Shown here piece by piece: positions 51,668 through 57,711 of a DNA stretch of 64,000 nt; the first letter of the stretch is position 1; each line of letters begins with the position of its first letter. Both the position numbers and the translations under genes were made by a program. Origin of the DNA: Bdellovibrionales bacterium. Lineage in GTDB: Bacteria > Bdellovibrionota > UBA1018 > CAIMNF01. The stretch is taken from NCBI GenBank assembly GCA_947502835.1, contig CANNBJ010000002.1, positions 186,001 to 250,000 of the forward strand, in the 5' to 3' direction. The notes beneath the pieces were generated by a model. It did no database searches and had not been told where the DNA came from. It worked only from the letters and a program-made list of their open reading frames with translations.

Positions 51668-54583
51668 ATGGAAAAAGTGGCTAAAATAGGCGAAAATCCA
51701 ACGAAAATTTCTTTTGATCCTCCTTATCAATTTTCAGCCAGGCACATTGGGCCGAACGAAAAAGAGCAAGCCGGGATGTTGAAAGCCCTTGACTTGAAAT
51801 CTCTTGACGAGCTTGTTCAAAAGACGGTTCCGGATGCCATCCGGATCAAAACCCCGATCAGGATCGAGGGCGTGCATGACGAAAGAGTTGTTCTCGAGAA
51901 GCTTAAGACCGTGGTTGGTAAAAACCAGGTGTTTCGCTCCCTCCTTGGTCTCGGGTTTTCGGATTGCATTACGCCAAATGTAATTCTCCGGAATGTTCTC
52001 GAGAATCCCGGATGGTATACGCAGTACACACCTTACCAGGCCGAGATCGCCCAAGGGCGCCTTGAGGCGATTCTGAACTTCCAAACCATGACGATCGATC
52101 TGACCGGTCTTCCTGTTGCAAACGCGTCCCTTCTGGACGAGGCAACGGCATGCGCCGAGGCAATGACCATGAGTCAGGCATTGCACCCGGATTCGGCGCG
52201 TAAAGTGTTTTATGTCTCGAAGGCGCTTCATCCGCAAAACATCGCTGTCATTGAAACCCGTGCCACGCCGCTTGGAATCGAAGTGAGAACGTTTGATCCC
52301 GCATCCTATTTACCCACCGAGGAAATGTTTGGCGCGATTTTCCAATATCCAGGCACGGACGGACTTCTCGACACCCAGATCGAGAAAAAAATTCTCGATG
52401 CAAAATCGAAGGGGCTGATTGCCATTGTTGCGGCGGATCCCCTTGCTCTCACACTCCTGAAGAGTCCGGGCGAGCTGGGCGCTGACATTGCCGTGGGGAG
52501 CTTTCAGCGGTTCGGTGTTCCCATGGGATTCGGGGGGCCGAGTGCCGCGTACCTGTCCTGCAAGGATGAATTCAAGCGAAATATGCCAGGCAGGATCGTG
52601 GGTCTTTCCAAGGATCTCAGGGGACGTCCGGCAATTCGGCTTGCCTTGCAAACGCGCGAGCAACACATCCGGCGAGAGAAGGCCACAAGCAACATTTGTA
52701 CGTCCCAAGTGCTCCTCGCAGTGATTGCCTCCATGTACGCCGTGTACCACGGACCAGCGGGCCTTCGTCAGATCGCAAGCCGCACACATGGACTGGCGGT
52801 TCTCCTGGCGAGGGGTTTGACGAGCCTCGGGTTCTCCCTGCTGGGAGAGTCTTTTTTCGATACCCTGACCTTCAGGACCGGTACGGAGCTGGATGCGAAG
52901 CGGTGGGTTTTGGAATTTTTGAAAAGTGGAATCAATATCCGTCATTCTGGAGAGTGGCTCACGGTGGCACTCGATGAAGTCACCACCCTGGAGGAGGTCT
53001 CAAAGATCCTGAATGTTTTCTCGGCGGGTAAGCTGTCTGTCGAGAGTCTGCTTCAGGAAGACGTGTTTGAGCAAATCCCCGTCGGTCTTTCAAGAGGCAC
53101 CCCGTTTCTAGAGCATCCCGTGTTTCATCAGTACCATTCCGAACATGAAATGCTCAGATACATGTCGATGCTGGAAAAGAAGGATTTATCGCTGAATTTT
53201 TCGATGATTCCCCTTGGCTCTTGCACGATGAAGCTCAATGCAACCGTCGAGATGATTCCGGTAACCTGGCCGGAAATCGGAAAACTCCATCCAGCTGCCC
53301 CGAAGGCCCAAGTGGAAGGCTACCTCGAACTTTTCAGGGACCTTGAAAGCATGTTGGCCCAAGTAACCGGCTTTGACGCTGTTTCCTTGCAACCCAATGC
53401 CGGGTCACAAGGTGAGTATTCCGGACTTCTTGCCATCCGCGCTTATCACGAGTCGAGGGGTGAGTCTCACCGGACTGTTTGTCTCATTCCCAAATCCGCA
53501 CATGGCACCAATCCCGCATCCGCAGTGATGGCGGGGTTTCAGGTCGTGGTCGTCGAGTGTGATCGCGACGGGAATGTGGATCTGGCCGATCTAACTCGAC
53601 TTGCACAGGAGCATTCTTCAAATCTTGGGGCCCTTATGGTGACGTATCCGTCCACTCATGGGGTTTTCGAGTCTGCGATTCGCGAAATCTGTTCGGTAAT
53701 TCATCAACATGGCGGTCAGGTGTACATGGATGGAGCGAACATGAACGCGCAAATTGGATTGTGCAGGCCGGGAGATTTCGGACCGGATGTGTGCCATTTG
53801 AACCTTCACAAGACATTTTGCATTCCGCATGGGGGCGGGGGCCCTGGAATGGGTCCGATTGCCGTAAAACAACAGTTGGCGCCCTTCTTGCCAGGGCACG
53901 TCTTCTCCGCATTCAATGGAGTGAAGGTGGGTGGCACGGTAGGTGCGGTTTCATCGGCTCCTTGGGGAAGTGCGAGCATTCTCCCGATTTCCTGGGTCTA
54001 CATGAACCTCATGGGATCGGAAGGGTTGAAGAAGGCCACGGAGGTCGCCATCTTGAATGCGAACTATATGGCGAAGAAGCTTGAGGCGCACTATCCGGTT
54101 CTCTATAAGGGCTTCGGCGGTCTGGTGGCCCATGAGTGTATCCTTGATCTGCGTCCCCTGAAGGCCGAAACCGGCATCGAGGTGGAAGATGTGGCAAAGC
54201 GGCTGATGGACTATGGATTTCATGCGCCGACGGTGTCTTTTCCAGTAGCGGGCACGATCATGCTGGAGCCAACGGAAAGCGAGACAAAGGCTGAAATGGA
54301 CCGTTACATTGATGCATTGATTGCGATACGCGCCGAAATTGAGGCCATCAGGACTAGAAAGGCTGATCGCAAGAACAATCCTCTCAAGAATGCGCCACAC
54401 ACCGCAGAAATGGTAACCTCCACGGAGTGGGTTTTTTCGTATTCCCGAGAAGAGGCTGCTTACCCGCTGCCATATCTGCGGCAGAAAAAGTTTTGGCCAT
54501 CGGTTGCAAGGATCGACAACGTTTACGGCGATCGAAATCTGGTCTGCTCGTGCGCTCCGATTGATGCCTATCGCAATGGATGA
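51668..54583 (+). CDS. gcvP: Glycine dehydrogenase (decarboxylating), P-protein of glycine cleavage
   Basis: A 971-residue PLP enzyme that decarboxylates glycine and transfers aminomethyl to lipoyl-GcvH. It is the single-chain form, not split into two subunits. [17 protein letters not shown] starts the family domain. The N-terminal half has [20 protein letters not shown] and [10 protein letters not shown]. The C-terminal half has [35 protein letters not shown] and the PLP lysine near 715 in [16 protein letters not shown]. It is encoded opposite to, and converging on, the gcvT-gcvH-deaminase genes. Confidence 0.98.
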
Positions 54584-54611: not shown

Positions 54612-55370
54612 TCAAATCGGGGACACGTCAATGTTCGGTGACCCGGCAAGAAGCCAGAGTTCCGAGGCCCGATAAAGGCATGAATTTCTGGCAGCTGGGC
54701 CGGTATCGTCCTCAAGGAACTTGACGCGGATCGGAGATTCCTTCTTTGAAAAGGACAAAATCTGGGCAGAGCACATGGCACAAGGTCGAAGAGAAACCCA
54801 AAGAGTCGATTCTCGATGAAACCCTTGTAGGCCCTGTTCCACAAGCGAGTGAACCAGTTGTAGTTCCGCATGATTTGTGCGGTTTTCAAGGCTTTGACTC
54901 CATGAGTACGCAAACACTTTCCCCTCGGCACCAGTGAGAATCGCACTCACTCGCGTCCTTCCGCTTGCTCGCCCTCGAAGGAGTTCAAGCCAATGCTTGA
55001 TGTTTCCTTCGGAAACCGAGAGTTCTTTTGGAATCAATTCTTCAAAAAAAGAACTTTGTGAAGGGGGACTCACCTCGCGGAACTCGCCTTGATGCGCAGT
55101 GAAACGCTCAAGGAAATGATCCATTGGTAAATAAGTGATTCTTTTTGCAACAACCTTGACCATTCCCGCACAAAGAGGAAGTGGTTCGTAGTTGCAAAAA
55201 ATCCTTTCCCGGGTGAGAGCGATGGAGCGTTTGGGATCAAGCACACAAAGACCCCGAATGAGCGCTGTCACGGGAGTTTCGACCCCTTGATGGACTCTGC
55301 GCGCGAAAAACAGGGTGCCGTCGTGGATCAGAAACGCGGCGACACTCGCAAGATCAGAGGGTTTTGACAA
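54612..55370 (-). CDS. Deaminase of the CDA-like superfamily (Bd3614-like)
   Basis: About 252 residues. The zinc-dependent nucleoside/nucleic-acid deaminase motifs are at the C-terminus: HAE (about 167-169, NHAELQLVHSL) and PCxxC (Cys197 and Cys200, LRPCAMCSAQIL). These supply His and two Cys zinc ligands and the proton-shuttle Glu. A separate N-terminal domain of about 150 residues precedes them. This two-part build resembles the Bd3614-type deaminases named from Bdellovibrio. The substrate is unknown. No ATG fits; a TTG at 55370 overlapping the gcvH end by 17 bases is the best start guess. It is probably co-translated with gcvH. Confidence 0.75.
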   Translation of the reverse strand: MSKPSDLASVAAFLIHDGTLFFARRVHQGVETPVTALIRGLCVLDPKRSIALTRERIFCNYEPLPLCAGMVKVVAKRITYLPMDHFLERFTAHQGEFREVSPPSQSSFFEELIPKELSVSEGNIKHWLELLRGRASGRTRVSAILTGAEGKVFAYSWSQSLENRTNHAELQLVHSLVEQGLQGFHRESTLWVSLRPCAMCSAQILSFSKKESPIRVKFLEDDTGPAARNSCLYRASELWLLAGSPNIDVSPI

Positions 55371-55740
55371 AGGAGGAGTATGCCGATGCGTCCAGCAGGG
55401 CTTGGAACTGGGACTTGGCGGTATCCGACTCGATGACAACCATCCATTCGCCGTGGGCATTTGTATTGATGCGTCCGGGATCGGAAGCGAGGGCCGCATT
55501 GACCTCCACGACCTTTCCTCCGAGAGGTGAGAGCAGATCCGAAACCGCCTTGATGCTCTCCACAACGCCGAAGGTTTCGTGTGGCTTCAATTCCCGTCCC
55601 GTTTTCGGGAGTTCGAGATAAACAATATCGCCCAAGCTGCTTTGGGCGTGATCTGTAATTCCGACCCTGACACGGTTCTCCGCAACCAGTTCTGCCCACT
55701 CGTGATCCTTGGTGTATTTCAGATTCTCCGGATAATTCAT
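55354..55740 (-). CDS. gcvH: Glycine cleavage system H protein
   Basis: The 128-residue lipoyl carrier protein that shuttles the aminomethyl group between P, T and L proteins. The lipoylated lysine is Lys64 in GVVESIKAVSDL. YTKDHEWAE and VGITDHAQSSLGDIVYLELP open the family domain. It starts immediately after gcvT on the same strand. Confidence 0.97.
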   Translation of the reverse strand: MNYPENLKYTKDHEWAELVAENRVRVGITDHAQSSLGDIVYLELPKTGRELKPHETFGVVESIKAVSDLLSPLGGKVVEVNAALASDPGRINTNAHGEWMVVIESDTAKSQFQALLDASAYSSFVKTL

Positions 55741-56856
55741 TCAGTTCTCCTTTTTCTTCTCAAGAAACGGTGTTTTGCAAACTTCAAATTCATGAAAATC
55801 ATCCCTGATCTTTACGGTGACCCGGGTTCCCGACCTCTCATGGATCTTGTCAATCAGAGCGATGCCGATCGCCCTCTTCAGGCTCGGACTTTGGGTGCCG
55901 CTTGTGATGTGCCCGATGATCCGGGAGCGAGTCTCGTCCCACACCTCGTAACCCTGCCTCGGAATGCCCCTCCCGATCGAAAGCACTCCTGCGAGACAAC
56001 GGGTCTGGCCTGCGGCTTTGACTCGTGCGATCGCCTCTTTACCGATGAAGCCGCCTGTTTTACCAAGTTTTGTAATCCAGCCCAACCCTGTTTCCAATGG
56101 ATTTGTGGTTTCAGTGAGCTCATGTCCATAGAGTGCGTACTTCATCTCGAGCCGGAGAGTGTCGCGTGCGCCGAGACCGCAGGGCAACAACCCGAAAGGC
56201 GAACCGACTTGAAGCAGGGAATTCCAAATCTTCTTGCTCGACTCACGACCCGTATAGATCTCAAAGCCGTCCTCCCCGGTATATCCGGTCCGTGCGATCA
56301 ATGCGTTCTCGCCGCAAACGAGGCCGGGGGCACACCAATAGGTTTTCATCTCCTGAAGATTCACGGGAGTGAGCTCTTGCAGAATCGAGGCTGCACGGGG
56401 TCCTTGGATTGCAATCTGTGCCGTTTCGTCAGACTCATTGGTAAGGACCGGTTTCGTTCCCGGGAAGAGTGCCAGAGAGGTCGATAAGTGCGAGAAGTCT
56501 TTGTCAATGTTTGCCGCATTCACCACAAGAAGGAATTCCTGTTCCCCGAGACGATACACCACGAGATCATCGATGATGCCTCCCTCTGGATTGCAGAATG
56601 CCGAATATTGGGCCTGGAATACAGCAAGTACTGAGGCGTCGTTCGTGGTCACATGATTCACGAACTCAACAGCGCCCGGACCTTTCACTCGAAGCTCGCC
56701 CATGTGGCTGACATCAAAGATCCCGCACGCGTTTCGAACCGCATCATGCTCAAGAGTGAGCCCGGAATACTGGACGGGGAGTTCCCAGCCGCCAAAGTCC
56801 ACCATCTTGCCGGAAAGCTTTTTGTGTTCATCAAATAAAGGGGTTCTTTTCAACAT
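55741..56856 (-). CDS. gcvT: Aminomethyltransferase, T-protein of glycine cleavage
   Basis: A 371-residue tetrahydrofolate-dependent enzyme that releases ammonia and forms methylene-THF. The N-terminus has LFDEHKKLSGKMVDFGGWELPVQY and FDVSHMGE. The folate-binding centre has RTGYTGEDGFEIY, and the C-terminal barrel has GLGARDTLRLE. Length is normal. It lies between folD (nine bases upstream) and gcvH, tying methylene-THF production to its use. Confidence 0.97.
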   Translation of the reverse strand: MLKRTPLFDEHKKLSGKMVDFGGWELPVQYSGLTLEHDAVRNACGIFDVSHMGELRVKGPGAVEFVNHVTTNDASVLAVFQAQYSAFCNPEGGIIDDLVVYRLGEQEFLLVVNAANIDKDFSHLSTSLALFPGTKPVLTNESDETAQIAIQGPRAASILQELTPVNLQEMKTYWCAPGLVCGENALIARTGYTGEDGFEIYTGRESSKKIWNSLLQVGSPFGLLPCGLGARDTLRLEMKYALYGHELTETTNPLETGLGWITKLGKTGGFIGKEAIARVKAAGQTRCLAGVLSIGRGIPRQGYEVWDETRSRIIGHITSGTQSPSLKRAIGIALIDKIHERSGTRVTVKIRDDFHEFEVCKTPFLEKKKEN

Positions 56857-56865
56857 GGCCTCAAT

Positions 56866-57711
56866 CTAGCCTTCCCGGCTTGCAGCCGCAAATGTGTTTT
56901 CAAGCAAAACCTGGATGGTCATGGGCCCGACTCCGCCCGGAACCGGGCTGAGGGCATGAGGGATGCCAAGGATGGAGTCCGTGTCGACATCCCCGGTGAT
57001 CCGGCCACTGGTGTCTCGATGGATCCCGACATCCACGACCACGGATCCGGGCTTCAGCCAATCGCCCTTGATCAAACCGCGGGATCCAGCAGCAACAAAA
57101 ACCAAATCCGCAAGTTTACAAAGGGACGCGGGATCGGGCGTGCGTCGATGAAGCTGAATCAGTGATGCGTTTCTCGAAAGCAGGAGCGAAGCAAGCGGTT
57201 TGCCGACAATGGCGCTGCGACCGACCACGCACACCGTGCGTCCTTCGATTTGAATTCCGTAGTGGTCCAAAAGGAGAAGGATTCCGCCGGGAGTGCAGGG
57301 AATGAAACGGGGGTTCCCGGTAACCAAGAGCCCGATATTCTCAGGATGCAGACAGTCCACATCCTTCGATGGATCCACCCAAAGTGCGACATCCTTTTCC
57401 TTGAGCTGCGAGGGAAGTGGGCGCTGAATCAGGATTCCGTCCACGCGTGGATCCGCATTCAGCTCGCGGACGCGCTTCAAAACGGTTTCCGACGGAACGG
57501 TTTCTGGGAAGCGAATGGTCTCACTTGTGAAGCCCACCTTGGTTGCTGCATTGGCCTTTCGACCCACGTATACCTGACTGGCAGGATCGTCCCCGATCAA
57601 GATGACACTCAAATGTGGAGCCCGACCTAGAGTAGCCCGCAATCGGGTGGTCTTCCCCTGTAGGTCCGCTCGTCGTTTCTCCACAACGGGTTTTGCAGAG
57701 AGTGAAATCAT
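56866..57711 (-). CDS. folD: Bifunctional methylene-THF dehydrogenase / cyclohydrolase FolD
   Basis: A 281-residue NADP-dependent enzyme converting 5,10-methylene-THF to 10-formyl-THF. The catalytic lysine region is YVGRKANAATKVGF near 48-61. DGILIQRPLP, PCTPGG and the nucleotide-binding VVGRSAIVGKPLA are diagnostic, with SPVPGGVGPMT at the C-terminus. It starts the folD-gcvT-gcvH-deaminase run and is divergent from flgF across 241 bases. Confidence 0.97.
   Translation of the reverse strand: MISLSAKPVVEKRRADLQGKTTRLRATLGRAPHLSVILIGDDPASQVYVGRKANAATKVGFTSETIRFPETVPSETVLKRVRELNADPRVDGILIQRPLPSQLKEKDVALWVDPSKDVDCLHPENIGLLVTGNPRFIPCTPGGILLLLDHYGIQIEGRTVCVVGRSAIVGKPLASLLLSRNASLIQLHRRTPDPASLCKLADLVFVAAGSRGLIKGDWLKPGSVVVDVGIHRDTSGRITGDVDTDSILGIPHALSPVPGGVGPMTIQVLLENTFAAASREG

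Follow-up and report, generated by a model that had tools for sequence, protein, structure and literature searches.

Among the closest described systems are deaminases in which a dead copy of the fold accompanies a live one. In ADAT2/ADAT3 an inactive deaminase is paired with an active one (PMC7713142), and in human CDADC1 an inactive N-terminal domain has an architectural role beside the active C-terminal domain (PMC12088426). TadA, the tRNA adenosine-34 deaminase, is a homodimer of single domains. The Bd3614 proteins of Bdellovibrio carry PF14439 (Bd3614-deam) and PF14442 (Bd3614_N), Pfam thus naming both the family and its N-terminal domain. Our literature search for Bd3614 and PF14439 found no paper mentioning either, the main text of a Bdellovibrio Tn-seq paper does not name the Bd3614 deaminase, and we found no activity or substrate for any family member in the literature searched.

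We analysed a 64,000-nt window from the genome of a Bdellovibrionales bacterium (contig CANNBJ010000002.1) that encodes a member of this already known, uncharacterised bacterial family. The window protein shares with the Bdellovibrio proteins the two-domain layout, the zinc motifs, and homology over residues 12-236. However, its N-terminal domain is too diverged for PF14442, S158 replaces a common Asn, and the Bdellovibrio genes have other neighbours, a histidine kinase and a divergently oriented gene for a SAM methyltransferase, none of them gcv. The C-terminal domain has the fold and zinc site of TadA, its best solved-structure match, but the window protein is a tandem with an inactive copy rather than a homodimer of single domains. 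It resembles ADAT2/ADAT3 and CDADC1 in apparently pairing a dead deaminase fold with an active one, an analogy that implies no membership. ADAT2/3 are separate chains, whereas the window protein is one chain, and the CDADC1 N-domain keeps PCxxC, has HAG, and is followed by a long linker, whereas in that of the window protein HAE is wholly lost, as is the first Cys, and the protein is half the size.

The gene and its start codon

The deaminase gene shares the last 17 nt of gcvH (Table 1). A TTG within gcvH had been proposed as the start codon from the window alone, and relatives bear this out. In one relative (L002) the sole ATG, GTG or TTG ahead of the first conserved strand is a TTG at this very position, and a second (L003) again has TTG there; in others an ATG (L004-L007) or a TTG (L010) lies no more than 15 nt past the gcvH stop. 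We therefore regard the TTG at 55370 as a well supported start, although its conservation in L001-L003 may be partly due to the overlapped gcvH codons.

No Shine-Dalgarno-like sequence is visible upstream of the TTG in the window, and translation therefore likely proceeds by termination-reinitiation behind gcvH. Such coupling to gcvH would also be expected because the deaminase gene fills the slot between the convergent gcvH and gcvP. A promoter scan gave no sigma-70 match, and terminators were near chance. In three relatives (L005, L006, and L007) gcvH and the deaminase lie in one frame, with a single TGA and then five codons to the deaminase ATG; read-through would fuse gcvH with the deaminase, but this in-frame layout is probably coincidence.

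Table 1. Features of the locus, in window coordinates
Feature	Coordinates	Strand	Basis and remarks
ORF, 116 aa	51222..51572	-	No Pfam match; just upstream of gcvP, opposite strand
gcvP	51668..54583	+	TIGR00461, 1419 bits; convergent, stop 28 nt from deaminase stop
Bd3614-like deaminase gene	54612..55370	-	252 aa; frame open from TTG to TGA stop (54612-54614); PF14439 60 bits (cut-off 38.5)
C-terminal active-type deaminase domain, residues 119-252	54615..55016	-	PF14439 and PF00383 above cut-off
N-terminal pseudo-deaminase domain, residues 8-118	55017..55349	-	hhalign, AF2, Foldseek
gcvH	55354..55740	-	TIGR00527, 127.8 bits, above cut-off
Probable TTG start codon	55368..55370	-	Same position in relatives L002 and L003
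gcvT	55741..56856	-	TIGR00528, 384.3 bits, above cut-off
folD	56866..57711	-	PF02882 and PF00763 above cut-off

The two domains of the protein

The initial annotation had called the protein a Bd3614-like deaminase with intact HAE and PCxxC zinc motifs, and profile searches agreed: the window protein matched PF14439 at E 2.6e-16 and PF00383 at 37.1 bits (cut-off 25). The motifs are H167-A-E169 (residues 167-169) and P196-C197-x-x-C200 (residues 196-200), and two alignments, one of the window protein with 25 relatives and one with 27 (26 and 28 members), show no variation at the His, the Glu or either Cys. Because the zinc-site residues are invariant, the enzyme is likely to be catalytically active. 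The best PDB matches of the C-terminal domain are TadA and dCMP deaminase. With the TadA equivalog NF008113 the score was 24 bits, below the cut-off of 150. Among AID/APOBEC-like families, the domain reached the cut-off for SNAD4 (29 bits vs 27), a score much weaker than that with PF14439, which we read as a superfamily cross-match.

The separate N-terminal domain also held up. Its role had been given as unknown, and its nature can now be given from profile comparison and structure prediction. When the N-domain was aligned with the C-domain by hhalign (E 9.3e-5), the helices of HAE and of PCxxC fell into register, and comparison with a TadA-type profile gave the same register at E 0.012; none of 150 column shuffles did as well in either comparison. 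An AlphaFold2 (AF2) model of the window protein, built with 27 relatives, had a pLDDT of 93.2 and a pTM of 0.90, and both halves showed the order strand-strand-helix-strand-helix-strand-helix-strand. The N-domain modelled alone had a pLDDT of 88.9. When this isolated model was searched with Foldseek, the top 23 PDB matches all belonged to the deaminase superfamily, each weak singly (best individual E only 0.048), and the best fold match was dCMP deaminase. Because profile register, shuffles, predicted topology, and fold matches agree, we conclude that residues 8-118 form a degenerate deaminase domain, which makes the protein a pseudo-deaminase/deaminase tandem.

The window N-domain has PVT in place of HAE, and EPLPLC in place of TadA's EPCPMC. 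Across relatives, only the second Cys persists among the catalytic residues, in 17 of 28, while the most conserved residues of the domain include the basic R54, K72, K76, and R77. An N-domain is present in every aligned relative and can be aligned across all of them. With a threshold of E <= 0.05, PF14442 was found in 13 of the 28 relatives (best E 2.3e-6); a PF14442 profile search of the window protein itself gave no match. Nevertheless, tblastn aligned the window protein with Bdellovibrio Bd3614-type proteins from residue 12 through the N-domain, and an A3 profile picked up both N-domains. By sequence comparison, the window N-domain thus appears related to Bd3614_N, whose founders may already have recognised a dead deaminase. 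Two things are new here: what kind of domain the N-domain is, and the negative outcome for gcv linkage described below.

Gene order and distribution

On the minus strand folD, gcvT, gcvH, and the deaminase gene follow one another at intervals of 9, 0, and -17 nt, and family matches together with this order confirm the one-carbon run that had been recognised around the deaminase. In the window's genus, the deaminase is present in nine of 12 genomes and always lies between gcvH and gcvP. It directly follows gcvH in eight of the nine carriers, and in the ninth a CorA-like gene stands between. Thus, the pairing recurs within the genus, but not beyond it: no gcv gene or folD was seen near relatives outside the genus at any of 29 loci (median 18 kb), nor in 20 further stretches of ~15 kb, some from the same genomes. 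Inside the genus, ~20 kb of neighbouring genes is equally syntenic, and three members have gcvH without the deaminase after it. For these reasons we consider the gcv link incidental. It is a gene order at the level of the genus, and the functional coupling to glycine cleavage considered in the initial annotation is unsupported. Recognising the link as local synteny avoids a misleading lead.

The slot after gcvH is variable (L129, L130, L131, and L008). It holds a CorA-like gene in two genomes (G004 and G007), a gene for an AraC-Ada-like O6-methylguanine-DNA methyltransferase in another (G005), and in a further one (G002) a gene for an outer-membrane-like protein without a Pfam match; genes of these three kinds occupy the position in the members that lack the deaminase there.

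Of 369 genomes from the phylum (Bdellovibrionota), 70 carry a PF14439 match at E 1e-9. N-domain matches in the 369 genomes coincide with deaminase genes, apart from short pieces resembling contig-end fragments. Relatives outside the phylum are few (Povalibacter, one myxococcal contig, and one armatimonad contig). The one in Povalibacter uvarum (L122:9809-11053) is longer; it has the two domains and is extended at the C terminus. Trees of the deaminase and of GcvP agree in their supported clades, and the median terminal branch is ~12 times longer for the deaminase (0.84 vs 0.066).

Outside the genus no general recurring neighbour was found; cytochrome c552, DprA, a DinB-type polymerase, DNA alkylation repair, and a SAM methyltransferase were among the genes seen. 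Because these neighbours are diverse and none is general, we read no function from them. In Bdellovibrio and its family (L163-L172, L174-L177, and L179) the usual arrangement places the deaminase head-to-head with a ~305-aa SAM methyltransferase, which matched PF10672 in the three cases scanned; on the other side of the deaminase, Bdellovibrio has a converging PAS histidine kinase/response regulator. At four loci (L098, L106, L107, and L110) the gene next to the relative is one of DNA repair or uptake (a DinB-type polymerase, DNA alkylation repair or DprA), and in two of the four the gene ends overlap.

Proposed mechanism and substrate

The explanation that we prefer, at a probability of about 60%, is that the gene encodes a cytoplasmic zinc deaminase of the Bd3614 family with two folds in one chain, an active C-terminal half and an inactive N-terminal partner, and no special role in glycine cleavage. 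Judging from the invariant motifs, the zinc would be held by H167, C197, and C200, and E169 would act as the proton shuttle, as is the case for TadA and for the dCMP and cytosine deaminases. The N-terminal fold, having lost all its catalytic residues, would act as an in-chain partner and lend support to the active half. By analogy with ADAT3, which partners ADAT2, and with the N-domain of CDADC1, it probably helps to hold the substrate through R54, K72, K76, and R77. A dead deaminase fold in this position offers a concrete mechanism, a pseudo-enzyme partner within the same chain, and makes the Bd3614-type tandem a candidate editing or nucleotide enzyme of a kind not yet described in bacteria.

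As to substrate, the odds that it is a base in nucleic acid are in our estimate about even. Such a substrate is mildly favoured by the conserved basic residues of the N-domain and by the basic protein (pI 8.5); the choice draws on this basic character and on resemblance to TadA/APOBEC-type profiles, both weak indications. The more specific proposal, a non-TadA nucleic-acid editing enzyme of bacteria, largely confined to Bdellovibrionota, with its own pseudo-deaminase partner in the chain and thus a prokaryotic parallel to ADAT2/ADAT3, is one we advance only tentatively. We judge a free nucleotide or base as substrate to be appreciably probable but short of even. An enzyme of this kind (e.g., of dCMP, CTP or guanine type) would have an architectural N-domain like that of CDADC1, which shares the layout of inactive N-domain and active C-domain and deaminates (d)CTP (PMC12088426), and the match of the N-domain model to dCMP deaminase fits it as well. 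However, the best PDB matches of the C-domain are TadA, and genes for dCMP-type and cytidine-type deaminases, as well as RibD, already exist in the same genome; we hold this reading to be a serious minority alternative.

The genome's own repertoire bears on a further idea, that the protein substitutes for TadA as a one-chain ADAT2/3 deaminating tRNA wobble A34. The protein has TadA as its nearest solved structure and is laid out like ADAT2/3, but the genome also carries a canonical TadA-like gene, which effectively refutes the idea unless that gene is non-functional, and most genomes of the phylum are without a strong Bd3614 match; we give it almost no weight. Since TadA-like, RibD, dCMP-type, and cytidine-type genes are all present, the Bd3614-type deaminase replaces none of them, and we rejected it as a replacement for TadA or RibD. 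A functional partnership with glycine cleavage or folate metabolism, in which the protein would deaminate a folate/pterin-related compound or a metabolite of the gcv run, might be read from the four-gene run with its overlap and from the position next to gcvH, or one gene away, in the genus carriers. The synteny of the surroundings, the three members with gcvH alone, and the lack of gcv genes near any relative examined outside the genus make it improbable. Somewhat less remote, but still unlikely, is an effector, toxin or defence deaminase made fast-evolving and patchy by conflict with prey, rivals or phage. Its long terminal branches, its restriction to a minority of the phylum's genomes, and the presence of toxin deaminases among related Pfam families would suit such a role. 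On the other hand, the window protein has no added delivery or repeat domain and no signal peptide obvious by eye, supported clades indicate vertical inheritance with gcvP, and no immunity-gene-like partner recurs. A defence or phage protein in particular was rejected, as the window protein had no PADLOC or PHROGs match and no relatives were confirmed in IMG/VR.

Returning to the active half of the proposed tandem, residue 158 lies nine residues before the His of the HAE motif. At this position five of the 28 aligned members, the window protein among them, have Ser in place of the Asn of most relatives, and this substitution may alter the base pocket.
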